Positions 36,647 through 52,778 of a stretch of 64,000 nucleotides of DNA are shown here, piece after piece (the first letter of the stretch is position 1; each line of letters opens with the position of its first letter). Origin of the DNA: Mycobacterium sp. DL440 (lineage in GTDB: Bacteria > Actinomycetota > Actinomycetes > Mycobacteriales > Mycobacteriaceae); contig NZ_CP050191.1 of NCBI RefSeq assembly GCF_011745145.1, forward strand, positions 3,148,296 to 3,212,295, read 5' to 3'. Position numbers and translations under genes: made by a program. The notes under the pieces are model-generated. The model was not told the DNA's origin, searched no databases, and was given only the letters and a program-made list of their open reading frames with translations.

Positions 36647-36675
36647 TGGTCGCAGGCGCGGGCGCCAGAGTTCCC
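36647..36675 (-). promoter_or_regulatory. ECF-type promoter GGGAAC-N17-CGACCA (DUF5134 gene)
   Basis: Minus strand: GGGAAC at 36675-36670, exactly 17 nt, then CGACCA at 36652-36647. Predicted start near 36640, leader about 40 nt. Same spacing and hexamers as at 41154-41182, 43256-43284 and 52750-52778. Confidence 0.65.
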
Positions 36676-36688
36676 GCACCCGTCAGCA

Positions 36689-36707
36689 CTACGACACGTT
36701 GTCGTAG
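36689..36707. promoter_or_regulatory. Perfect 8-bp inverted repeat upstream of copD-ctaG
   Basis: CTACGACA-CGT-TGTCGTAG. It overlaps TAGAAT (36705-36710), a likely -10 for the downstream gene. The shape resembles BlaI/CopY-class operators (ACANNTGT core), but no such regulator gene is in the window, so the binder is unknown. Confidence 0.6.
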
Positions 36708-36761
36708 AATCGCATGGCCGCAACGTGTTGCTCGTTTCCGCGGCGGAAGGCCGGTTCGACT

Positions 36762-38717
36762 ATGGCGCGTGTGCGCATGTCCACTGCGGCCGGGGTGTGG
36801 CGGGGACGCCTGACACTGCTCGGCATCGTCGCAGGTTGCACTGTGGTGCTGTTCATGTGCGCCTCGCAGCTGGGCGCACAGCGGCTGGATGCGGCGGGGA
36901 TCGCTGACCCGGGAACAGCCACCAGCGCAGCTCGGTTGCTCGGGCACTGGTTCGGCACCCTGGCAGGCGCGGTGTGCGTCGGAGCTCTCGTCTGGATTGT
37001 GACGACCGCGATACCTCGCGACGACGGGCGAATCGACGCGGCGTCCTTTTCCGCGCATCTGCTTGTCGAACGCATCGCGATCGTCTGGGTCTGCTGCACC
37101 ACCGCGATGGTCGTCGTCTCGGCGTCGGCCGATGCGGGAATTCCGATCAGCCGGCTCGTCTCCGGTCCCGGCCTCGGCAGCACCATCGCCGCCTCCGAGG
37201 CCGCTCGCGGGTGGTGCGTGGCGGCGTTGTGCGCGCTGGCGCTGGCCGTCGGCGTGCGTTTTACCTTCCGCTGGGTCGGACATTGTGTGGCTCTGCTGCC
37301 GGCGTTGGTCGGAGTGGTCGCGGTACCGGTGACCGGCAATGCCGGGCAGGGGCCGGATCATGACATCGCCACGAGCGCCGTGATCGTCTTCTCGGTGGTT
37401 GTCGCGGTATGGGCCGGAACGAAAATCGTCTCGGCTGGATTGGCCGACGTCGTGCTTCGACGCCGGGTCCAGGTGTTGCAGCTGGCATGCGGATCGGTCG
37501 CCATCGTCTACGGCGCCCTCCTGGCCACGCTGATGTTGGGCGGGTTGCCGCTCCTGGGTTCGGCCTACGGGCGGGCCGTGGTGGTCGCGGGGGTGCTGCT
37601 AGCGCTGGTGTGGGTTGGCGACGGCGCGCTTCTGCTGACGCGCGGTACCCCGTCGCGACTGGTCAACACCGTGTCTGCGGCCGCGGTGATCGTCGTCACC
37701 GCGGCGGTGGCGCTCGCCGCGAGCAGTGTGCCGCCGCGATTCACCGTCCACGAGTTCTCAACGTGGGACGTCTTTTTGGGCTATCAACTCGATGCACCCC
37801 CGAGCGTGGTCAGCCTGCTCACGGTGTGGCGGTTCGACCCGCTGATCGGAACGGCAGCCATCGTGCTCGCACTTGGCTATCTCCTCGCGGCGACGCTGCT
37901 GCGGCGACGGGGTGACTACTGGCCGGTGGGACGCACGATCGCCTGGTCCCTGGGTTGCGCGGCCCTGCTGGCCACCACGAGTTCCGGTGTGCGGGCCTAC
38001 GGTTCGGCGATGTTCAGCGTGCACATGGGTGAACACATGGCGCTCAACATGTTTGTCCCGGTGCTCCTGGTGCTCGGCGCGCCGGTGACGCTCGCGCTAC
38101 GGGTGCTGCCCACCGCGCCGAAGGGTGAGACGCCTGGTCCCCGCGAGTGGCTCGTATGGCTCGTGCACGCCCCGGTGACGCGATTCCTGTCGCACCCGGT
38201 GACGGCGTTCATGCTGTTCGTAGGCTCGCTCTACCTCGTGTACTTCACGCCCTTGTTCGATACCTTGATCCGGTATCACTGGGGCCACGAGTTCATGAGC
38301 GTGCATTTCCTGCTGACCGGCTACCTGTATTACTGGGGAATCATCGGCATCGACCCCGGACCGCGTCGCCTGCCCTTCCTGGGGCGGCTCGGGCTCCTGT
38401 TCGCCGTGATGCCCTTCCATGCCTTCTTCGGTATCGCCACGATGACGATGACGTCATCCCTGGGCGAGAGCTTCTATCGGTCCGTCAATCTTCCTTGGCT
38501 GCAGAGCATTTCGGATGACCAACACCTGGGCGGCGCCATCGCGTGGGGTTCGAGCGAGCTGCCGGTGCTCATCGTGGTCATTGCCCTGGTGACCCAATGG
38601 GCACGTCAGGATCGCCGAGCGGGCGCGCGGGAGGACCGCCACAGCGACCGCGGGTACGACGACGAACTCGACGCCTACAACGCGATGCTCAGCGAGCTCG
38701 CCCGCAACCGGCGCTGA
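36762..38717 (+). CDS. CopD-CtaG fusion, second copper membrane protein (Rv0102 type)
   Basis: About 651 residues. The N-terminal half has CopD-like helices; the C-terminal half is the CtaG domain with SVHMGEHMALN, MPFHAFFG and DDQHLGGAIAWG histidines. Same architecture as 1511-3541 but clearly diverged. In M. tuberculosis Rv0102 directly follows the nrp chalkophore operon; here the gene is 5 kb away in the same island. Role: periplasmic or inner-membrane copper handling for cytochrome oxidase. Start choice: ATG 36762 has GGAAGG 11 nt upstream; ATG 36714 is in frame but lies 3 nt from the -10. The palindrome at 36689-36707 is its likely control site. Confidence 0.85.
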   Translation: MARVRMSTAAGVWRGRLTLLGIVAGCTVVLFMCASQLGAQRLDAAGIADPGTATSAARLLGHWFGTLAGAVCVGALVWIVTTAIPRDDGRIDAASFSAHLLVERIAIVWVCCTTAMVVVSASADAGIPISRLVSGPGLGSTIAASEAARGWCVAALCALALAVGVRFTFRWVGHCVALLPALVGVVAVPVTGNAGQGPDHDIATSAVIVFSVVVAVWAGTKIVSAGLADVVLRRRVQVLQLACGSVAIVYGALLATLMLGGLPLLGSAYGRAVVVAGVLLALVWVGDGALLLTRGTPSRLVNTVSAAAVIVVTAAVALAASSVPPRFTVHEFSTWDVFLGYQLDAPPSVVSLLTVWRFDPLIGTAAIVLALGYLLAATLLRRRGDYWPVGRTIAWSLGCAALLATTSSGVRAYGSAMFSVHMGEHMALNMFVPVLLVLGAPVTLALRVLPTAPKGETPGPREWLVWLVHAPVTRFLSHPVTAFMLFVGSLYLVYFTPLFDTLIRYHWGHEFMSVHFLLTGYLYYWGIIGIDPGPRRLPFLGRLGLLFAVMPFHAFFGIATMTMTSSLGESFYRSVNLPWLQSISDDQHLGGAIAWGSSELPVLIVVIALVTQWARQDRRAGAREDRHSDRGYDDELDAYNAMLSELARNRR

Positions 38718-51144: not shown

Positions 51145-51210
51145 TGCGCGGCGCCGGTGGTGGTGGTGCGACTATCGGATTGGTCGAATCAAACCGGTTG
51201 AAAGTTCCCG

Positions 51211-52680
51211 CTATTCACGGGTCTGTTCTGGATCGCCGATCCAGGTTGCGGGAAGCATGGGAACGGATTCTCCGGCGCTGCCGCGCGCATGCTGGACCAT
51301 CCCTGCGGCGGATGTACTCGTGGCGACCGGTACGACGCCGGAGAAACCGAGGGTTGTTGCCCCCTGGTCGCTCGATGACGGTGATGAAGGTCGGCCAAGA
51401 CCGGGAACGTCCGCCACCTCAGTGGCGTCCAAAAATTCGTAGCGGTAGCTCCGGGCACGGTCTTGGTTGCGACCGGCCTGTTTTCGACGGTTGCGGGCAA
51501 CGACCGCCGCCCGGGCCGCCGCGACGGTGGTGAGAACGTCCCTCATGCCGTCGGGTGATTTCGCGCCGACCCTCGGTCCCGCCGCCACTGCAGGCGGATC
51601 CAAACCCGGCACGGCGTAGCCGACAGTGGATGGGCCTGCCGCACCCCCCGCGGTGCCCGGACTGCTCGGGGTGGGCACACCAGACCCCGCACTGGTCTGC
51701 GGAACCGCTGTTGAGGGGGCGGACGGAAGCAATGGCACGCCGGCATCGACTGACCGGCCGGTCCTGTGCCCGGCGTCGACATCGACGGACCCTGGCATCA
51801 GCCCGGACGCCGGAACCTTGTTCTGCAGCAGCGCCAGGACGCTCAGCGCACTGAGGGCACTGAGCGCCGGCGCGAAGAACGGTAGAAGCAGTAGCGAATA
51901 CGAGGCGTAGTAGGGATACCAGAGCATGTCGTAGAGCACCAGCGCGATGGCGGCGAGTATGGCGGCCTCGGCCGGGTTGAATCCCAATTGCCCGAAGAAC
52001 TCTTGAAACGTTTCAAGCAGCTGTTGGGGATTGCCGGCTCCCGAAATCAGCTCCGAGATCAGCTTCCAGATGTCGTTCAATTGCGGGTCGCCTGAGGTTG
52101 TGCCAGAGGAATTCTGCTGCTCGCTCCGGGCATCACCGCCCGGCGCGAGGATCGACGGGGCCGGTTGAGTCGATGGAACCGCCGAGTACGCGCTCACCGC
52201 CACCGCTTCGTAGGTGGCCATCGATTCGGCCGCCTGTAGCCACATTCGCACGTAATCGGCTTCGTTGAGTGCGATGGGGATGGTGTTGATGCCGAAGAAG
52301 TTGGTGGCCAACAGTACGCCGCGGGTGATGTGGTTGACGGCGAGTTCCGCCAGGGTCGGCATGGTCGCCAGTGCGCTGCCGTACGCCGCCGCGACCGTCT
52401 CATGCTGCGCGGCGGTGACGGCACTGTCGGCTGAGGCCTGCCCCAGCCACGCCAGGTAAGGGCCGTGGGCAGCCACATACTGTGCGGCGCTGGGCCCTTC
52501 CCAACTGCCGGCCTGCACGTCGGCCAGGATCTGCGTGAGTTCGGCAGCCGCTGCACTGTATTGAGCGCTCAAGCCCTGCCACTGGGCAGCCGCCGCAACC
52601 AGGGATCCGGGGCCCGGTCCGGCGGTCAACAAGGTCGAATGCACCTCTGGAGGCACCGCAAACCAGAGCGGTGCGGTCAC
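51211..52680 (-). CDS. PPE family protein (PPE1 type) at the head of the chalkophore operon
   Basis: About 489 residues. The N-terminal 180 residues form the PPE domain: VTAPLWFAVPPEVHS start and SWEGPSA (WxG turn). A middle hydrophobic segment (LYDMLWYPYYASYSLLLLPFFAPALSALSALSVLALL) and a Pro/Ser/Gly-rich C-terminus follow. GTG 52680 is preceded by AGGAGG at 7 nt. PPE1 in M. tuberculosis heads the nrp operon and is linked to chalkophore use. No PE partner or ESX gene is next to it. Driven by the ECF promoter at 52750-52778. Confidence 0.9.
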   Translation of the reverse strand: MTAPLWFAVPPEVHSTLLTAGPGPGSLVAAAAQWQGLSAQYSAAAAELTQILADVQAGSWEGPSAAQYVAAHGPYLAWLGQASADSAVTAAQHETVAAAYGSALATMPTLAELAVNHITRGVLLATNFFGINTIPIALNEADYVRMWLQAAESMATYEAVAVSAYSAVPSTQPAPSILAPGGDARSEQQNSSGTTSGDPQLNDIWKLISELISGAGNPQQLLETFQEFFGQLGFNPAEAAILAAIALVLYDMLWYPYYASYSLLLLPFFAPALSALSALSVLALLQNKVPASGLMPGSVDVDAGHRTGRSVDAGVPLLPSAPSTAVPQTSAGSGVPTPSSPGTAGGAAGPSTVGYAVPGLDPPAVAAGPRVGAKSPDGMRDVLTTVAAARAAVVARNRRKQAGRNQDRARSYRYEFLDATEVADVPGLGRPSSPSSSDQGATTLGFSGVVPVATSTSAAGMVQHARGSAGESVPMLPATWIGDPEQTRE

Positions 52681-52749
52681 GTCATCACCTCCTCGCATGA
52701 GCGTTGATTGCGACCACACAGCCCGGTACGCGTTGCCTCGTACTTCAGC

Positions 52750-52778
52750 TAGTCGGGCACGAGCACCAGAAAGTTCCC
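52750..52778 (-). promoter_or_regulatory. ECF-type promoter GGGAAC-N17-CGACTA (PPE1-NRPS operon)
   Basis: Minus strand: GGGAAC at 52778-52773, 17 nt, CGACTA at 52755-52750; start near 52743, leader about 63 nt to the PPE GTG. Both hexamers are identical to those of the copper ATPase promoter. Confidence 0.68.

Follow-up and report, generated by a model that had tools for sequence, protein, structure and literature searches.

The closest described system to the locus analyzed here is the SigC regulon of Mycobacterium tuberculosis. In that species SigC raises ctpB and ppe1-nrp and is needed in copper-poor medium; near-identical predicted promoter elements before ctpB and ppe1 have been reported from Mycobacterium bovis BCG, and ctpB was not significantly changed in an M. 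tuberculosis sigC mutant in copper-poor medium (PMC7924339). CtpB aids growth at low copper (PMC9147137), and the chalkophore and PPE1 are required under that condition (PMC9600254). With respect to the sigma factor itself, a fusion of SigC to Rv0093c is mentioned for the avium complex in a review that also reports Mycobacterium smegmatis to be without a sigC ortholog (PMC7563442), and PMC8999054, from which the name ECF36 (ECF, extracytoplasmic function) for the SigC group is taken rather than from a model run, describes DUF2275 anti-sigma fusions in that group and counts M. tuberculosis SigC among the factors controlled by conformation. Here we describe a copper island (33.8-53.7 kb) in a 64,000-nucleotide (nt) stretch of Mycobacterium sp. 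DL440 (contig NZ_CP050191.1, positions 3,148,296 to 3,212,295; the whole stretch is referred to as the window), in which five copies of a promoter of the form GGGAAC-N17-CGACYA are probably read by the SigC encoded among them.

The island shares with the M. tuberculosis regulon (PMC7924339) a SigC ortholog, the ppe1-nrp genes and a copper ATPase. It differs in that sigC and a candidate partner lie within the island, in that additional sites precede scoE, PepSY and DUF5134 genes, and in that a Cys-rich peptide follows the ATPase. The two protein families that are joined in the ECF36-DUF2275 fusions (PMC8999054; avium-complex Rv0093c, PMC7563442) are encoded here by two unfused genes of the island, with about 5 kb between them. 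As in the diisonitrile chalkophore clusters of PMC9600254, PPE1, a ScoE-type oxygenase, an FcoT-type protein, FadD10, a carrier protein and Nrp are encoded in the same order, although the island Nrp has 1403 residues, whereas that of M. tuberculosis is described there as having an additional module. As SigC control of ctpB and ppe1-nrp is published for M. tuberculosis, the regulon is known in kind, and the fusion has already been noted; what this analysis adds are promoters before the PepSY, DUF5134 and scoE genes, the occurrence of this promoter in clusters of Nocardia and Segniliparus, and the partner protein.

All five island sites read GGGAACT, and each has a 17-nt spacer (coordinates are given in Table 1). 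A sequence-only reading of this DNA had reported four minus-strand sites, all of which are present as it described them, but its count of four units fell one short, as the site between PPE1 and the gene for the ScoE-type, isonitrile-forming oxygenase had been overlooked. By the gene coordinates in Table 1, the sites are all fully intergenic and each faces the next gene; non-coding DNA makes up 587 of the 19,915 bases in the stretch that holds them. The -10 box lies 45 nt from the start codon of the DUF5134 gene, 34 nt from that of PepSY and 36 nt from that of ScoE, and, depending on the start chosen, 8 or 32 nt from that of the copper ATPase and 30 or 66 nt from that of PPE1, so that the range of 28-65 nt proposed earlier was about right. 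The -35 box of the ATPase site is positioned ~15 nt from the divergent sigC start. There is no GGGAAC-N17-CGACYA site upstream of sigC itself, which fits a title in the reference list of PMC7924339 stating that M. tuberculosis sigC is not auto-regulatory. An inverted repeat over the ATPase -10 box (41143-41160) was rejected as an element, as it is not conserved in 11 relatives, and a RicR-like pattern was searched for and was absent.

The assignment of the neighboring sigma factor to SigC, also made in the sequence-only reading, is borne out by a score above the cut-off of the curated NCBIfam SigC model, by the presence of regions 2 and 4 (Sigma70_r2 and r4_2), and by its best solved relatives, which are two domains of M. 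tuberculosis SigC (Table 1).

The promoter recurs in relatives. For homologs of seven island genes in 70 named ScoE loci, the ~200 bases ahead of each gene were searched for GGGAAC-Nk-CGACYA, with values of k between 8 and 26 inclusive. A spacer of 17 was found at 87 distinct sites in 46 of the 70 loci and a spacer of 16 at four sites; the other 17 spacers tested gave zero sites in these loci, and the antisense strand gave one match in total. In the Mycobacterium fortuitum group (15 loci), the site precedes 13 of 14 PPE1 genes, 10 of 11 PepSY orthologs, 8 of 15 scoE genes, and the sigC-adjacent ATPase in 13 of the 14 loci covering that gene (counted by eye; the automated count is 14/20 because ATPase paralogs are mixed in). 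DUF5134 orthologs carry it in the loci that we label L081, L082, L084, L021, L032 and L037. Among the other mycobacterial loci it precedes 20 of 35 PPE1 genes and one of 29 heavy-metal-associated (HMA) genes. In other genera 8 of 13 ScoE loci have the site, comprising six of seven Nocardia plus Segniliparus and Gordonia. Across 92 distinct sites, a C precedes the -35 box in 85% and a T follows it in 85%; spacer positions carry at most 0.62 bits of information, save for the T beside the -35 box (1.27 bits). Boxes and spacing are thus kept before the regulon genes while the spacer drifts, which is the behavior expected of a sigma-factor promoter.

Across the genus, the pattern tracks SigC. In a survey of 198 genomes, GGGAACT-N16-CGACYA occurred 3.11 times per genome where both SigC and ScoE are present (n=46), 1.42 times where SigC occurs without ScoE (n=79) and 0.30 times where SigC is absent (n=73), and at least three sites were found in 29/46, 12/79 and 0/73 of these genomes, respectively. 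The reversed pattern (1.26, 1.53 and 1.23 per genome in the same three groups) did not track SigC; since it is found 1.2-1.5 times per genome whether or not the sigma factor is present, it is a poor baseline, and the SigC-lacking genomes were used instead. SigC is present in 46/46 ScoE genomes as compared to 79/152 genomes without ScoE. It is carried by 46 of the 48 genomes reached via 49 of the 70 named ScoE loci; the two exceptions are a metagenome bin of 3.2 Mb and a genome of Lentzea, for which 69 of 103 candidates were scored. In an order-level sample (E-value 1e-50), SigC was found in 14/16 ScoE genomes and in 108/298 genomes overall. SigC homologs lie in the ScoE neighborhood in Gordonia, two Nocardia and Actinokineospora. 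One site per genome was sampled from 30 genomes of the genus: 13 stand before a PPE gene (6), a copper ATPase (4) or a DUF5134 gene (3), and the remaining 17 have none of the island's genes downstream. The local SigC regulon proposed earlier is therefore supported, and "local" holds for the DL440 genome, but relatives also have sites outside such an island.

Other arrangements were seen in individual relatives. In L086 (position 9968), sigC and a PepSY gene bearing a SigC-type site lie back to back, followed by the zf-HC2 gene. In L035 and L029, from genomes in which ScoE was not found, SigC-type sites stand before a PPE gene (L035) and, by eye, a PE-like gene (L029), beside SigC and its partner. 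Single SigC-type sites in L028, L022, L031 and L042 precede, by eye, a BlaI/CopY-like repressor, a cytochrome oxidase subunit III-like gene and a pyridoxal phosphate (PLP) enzyme. Mycolicibacter and Mycobacteroides-type ScoE clusters are without an exact site though their genomes encode SigC (L118, L120, L123, L132, L144; L134, L135, L138, L141, L146).

The island also encodes a zf-HC2/DUF2275 membrane protein, ZAS, that is likely the missing anti-SigC factor and is predicted to hold SigC in check. It contains an N-terminal zf-HC2 domain (PF13490, 32.9 over 22.2), in which C3, H29, C33 and C36 are conserved in 50/50 homologs and would provide the Cys/His ligands of a ZAS-type protein, and a DUF2275-like membrane part (PF10039, 25.9 over 24.6), in which H123, E127, D170 and R180 are conserved in 50/50, H116 in 47/50 and H184 in 49/50. 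Some sources label its homologs as predicted anti-sigma-YlaC factor YlaD. A profile search built on 14 homologs, in which no more than 45 candidates were scored in any genome, found ZAS in 63/63 SigC-containing genomes tested (every second of 125) versus 2/73 genomes lacking SigC; of the latter two, one is only a partial match, and a search beside both revealed no sigC. Sixteen distinct proteins of 444-460 residues fuse ZAS to SigC in one frame, and 16/16 match both parts. A ZAS match is present in 25/83 SigC loci of about 3.5 kb, and in L171 a SigC homolog adjoins ScoE and ZAS. The protein is thus linked to the sigma factor by their common island, by the SigC loci, by the fusions and by co-occurrence. 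In other mycobacterial loci, 12 of 14 stand-alone ZAS genes have a SigC-type promoter; in slow growers 7 nt separate the end of its -10 box from the predicted start codon at 11/11 distinct sites, so the transcript would be leaderless. We infer from the fusion described in PMC7563442 that ZAS is the counterpart of Rv0093c. No report of the co-occurrence of ZAS with SigC, or of its SigC-type promoter, was seen in our searches of the open-licence PubMed Central (PMC) literature. In the Mycolicibacter sigC loci that were read (L203, L207, L208), SigC is fused to its partner.

The whole is best explained if the five sites are promoters read by the island SigC, such that the predicted chalkophore and copper genes are co-induced when copper is scarce, and we assign this reading a probability of about 0.82. 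SigC-RNA polymerase would use the sites, with starts ~7 nt downstream, and low copper would be the signal, as is published for M. tuberculosis SigC. Several points weigh against this account. SigC presence and absence were called at an E-value of 1e-30 from no more than 16 scored candidates in each genome, and in genomes with SigC but without ScoE the pattern is no commoner than its reversal, yet commoner than in genomes lacking SigC. The genomes are related, so the P values from the survey (2e-16 in a rank test for SigC and a second of 2e-11) and from Fisher's test of ZAS-SigC co-occurrence (5e-37) overstate independence. Some SigC-containing relatives lack an exact site at the chalkophore operon: in the non-fortuitum mycobacterial loci, 15 of the 35 PPE1 genes are without one, and an exact site was found upstream of 0/14 ATPase, 0/7 DUF5134 and 0/42 scoE genes. 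The 92 sites were gathered by exact pattern, which fixes their box frequencies by construction. Allowing two mismatches still reveals no SigC-type site at the window ZAS gene, which therefore gives no sign of feedback through SigC. Finally, the predicted fold of ZAS, which is of moderate confidence (predicted local distance difference test, pLDDT, 72.5; predicted template modeling score, pTM, 0.44), has no significant match among solved structures.

An alternative that accepts the sites as SigC promoters takes ZAS to be a copper-handling member of the regulon, while the conformation of SigC itself sets its activity. A control of this kind has been put forward for the M. tuberculosis protein (PMC8999054), and up to 2021 no anti-SigC factor had been described (PMC7924339). 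We nevertheless consider this unlikely, as it leaves unaccounted for the 16 single-frame fusions and the near-exclusive co-occurrence of ZAS with SigC, and it runs counter to the anti-sigma signature that a review ascribes to the fused Rv0093c (PMC7563442) and to the DUF2275 anti-sigma fusions in ECF36 (PMC8999054).

Alternatively, the promoters might be read by a different ECF sigma factor, SigM in particular, SigC being a mere neighbor. In favor of this idea, -35 boxes of the GGAAC type are common to SigM and other ECF factors, the DL440 genome has five matches to the SigM model (E-value 1e-20), and PMC7924339 raises a relation of ppe1-nrp to SigM as an open question. However, 198/198 of the surveyed genomes have a SigM-family match (190 above the cut-off), and still the pattern drops to an average of 0.30 in those that lack SigC. 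SigM presence therefore fails to explain the pattern, and a reader other than SigC is very improbable. GGGAAC together with sigC and M. tuberculosis was not found in the open-licence PMC literature.

In shuffled windows GGGAAC-N16..18-CGACYA occurred 0.07 times on average, and 0/100 shuffles reached five, in accord with the earlier judgment that the recurrence is unlikely by chance. Genome-wide (6.38 Mb, single contig), this pattern has 16 matches compared to eight for its reversal, and exact N17 has seven, five of them in the island; the many unrelated matches that the sequence-only reading had named as grounds for doubt did not appear for the exact pattern. When one mismatch is allowed, the count is at background (116 versus 110 for the reversed pattern), indicating that the signal resides in the exact pair of boxes. 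Chance or composition, that is, short GC-rich words recurring in a GC-rich genome, could appeal to this background count and to the two exact matches within coding frames, but it is already contradicted, and hardly credible, given the shuffles, the intergenic placement of all five sites, the recurrence of the same spacing upstream of orthologs and an expectation of 0.0008 in a 16-kb stretch at the rate of SigC-lacking genomes (22 matches in 73 genomes). Of the two coding matches, that at 3876118 was rejected as a regulon site, as it lies inside a 235-codon frame. The other, at 5911067 (L077:6068-6096), falls in the last codons of a 420-residue methyltransferase frame and was not counted as a remote regulon member, since shared coding sequence may account for it. 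The exact 5911067 site recurs in several relatives, possibly as a coding coincidence, and the gene downstream resembles eccA3 of ESX-3.

If SigC reads the five promoters, the switch might operate as follows. At adequate copper, the zf-HC2 domain of ZAS would hold SigC; as copper falls, SigC would be freed and transcripts would begin ~7 nt beyond CGACYA at each of the five sites. This would yield PPE1 and the chalkophore enzymes, the ATPase, which would be an importer if it resembles CtpB of M. tuberculosis, the Cys-rich peptide as a putative buffer, and PepSY and DUF5134 as putative membrane parts of uptake. The internal scoE promoter may allow the biosynthetic genes to be made without PPE1, and in slow growers the SigC-type promoter of ZAS itself would yield a leaderless transcript and negative feedback. 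A broader proposal, which we regard as tentative and rather doubtful, is that SigC, its promoter and ZAS are inherited as one copper-starvation switch, found alongside isonitrile chalkophore clusters in Mycobacterium, Nocardia and more distant genera. ZAS would then be the missing anti-SigC factor and would itself sense copper through the conserved membrane residues H116, H123, E127 and H184; once it is released, possibly through the Rip1 protease, the chalkophore genes would be switched on. The Rip1 pathway to the chalkophore locus is called sigma-factor-independent in PMC8131098, which describes sigD, sigK, sigL and sigM mutants and does not mention SigC in its text; in another study, the profile of a rip1 mutant was enriched for a sigC gene set (PMC10449499). 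A route for Rip1 control of the chalkophore locus via SigC and ZAS is speculation. For the control of SigC, a governor of copper acquisition in pathogenic mycobacteria, one candidate can now be named that is present in every SigC genome tested, and it is the part most deserving of follow-up. The regulon also gains a sharp promoter rule, and the PepSY and DUF5134 membrane proteins join it as likely parts of copper acquisition.

Table 1. Promoter sites and genes of the copper island, in window coordinates.
Feature	Coordinates	Strand	Basis
SigC-type promoter before DUF5134 gene	36647..36675	-	GGGAAC-N17-CGACCA
SigC-type promoter before copper ATPase and Cys-rich peptide	41154..41182	-	window pattern scan
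SigC-type promoter before PepSY gene	43256..43284	-	window pattern scan
SigC-type promoter before ScoE-type gene, between PPE1 and ScoE-type gene	51181..51209	-	window pattern scan
SigC-type promoter of ppe1-nrp operon	52750..52778	-	window pattern scan
ScfR-type (short-chain fatty acyl-CoA regulator) gene	33767-35173		adjoins zf-HC2 gene
zf-HC2/DUF2275 membrane protein (ZAS), candidate anti-SigC factor	35250..35957	+	Pfam, co-occurrence, SigC fusions
DUF5134 membrane protein, Met/His-rich stretch	35963..36601	-	PF17197 118 bits; sequence
CtaG-type membrane protein	36714..38717	+	PF09678 293 bits
36-residue Cys-rich peptide, metallothionein-like by eye	38726..38836	-	translation
Copper P-type ATPase	38833..41121	-	TIGR01511 and TIGR01525 above cut-off; alternative upstream GTG at 41145
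sigC, ECF sigma factor	41198..41764	+	NF007231 268 bits vs cut-off 219; PDB 2o7g, 2o8x
PepSY-associated membrane protein	41761..43221	-	PF03929 240 bits
HMA protein	43302..43661	-	PF00403
ppe1-scoE-fcoT-fadD10-ACP-nrp chalkophore operon (ACP, acyl carrier protein)	43665..52719	-	FadD10, ScoE models above cut-off; FcoT, PPE Pfam; open reading frames

The island thus comprises a ScfR-type regulator, ZAS, DUF5134, CtaG, the ATPase, the Cys-rich peptide, sigC, PepSY, the HMA protein and the chalkophore genes nrp, ACP, fadD10, fcoT-type, scoE-type and ppe1. The last group has the components of a diisonitrile chalkophore cluster, with ScoE at 481 bits (cut-off 400), FadD10 at 922 (cut-off 726), FcoT by Pfam and a non-ribosomal peptide synthetase; the glycyltransferase model ScoD scored 129 bits, below its cut-off of 250. 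A Pfam search with the Cys-rich peptide gave no match, and the window scan found no GGGAAC-N17-CGACYA site on the strand of the CtaG-type gene. The placement of a ScfR-type gene beside a zf-HC2 gene is also seen in L081 and L082, and HMA orthologs in L091 and L096 have their own SigC-type site. DL440 very likely belongs to the M. fortuitum group, as the closest ScoE proteins among the named loci are those of Mycolicibacterium peregrinum, porcinum, septicum, setense and allies.

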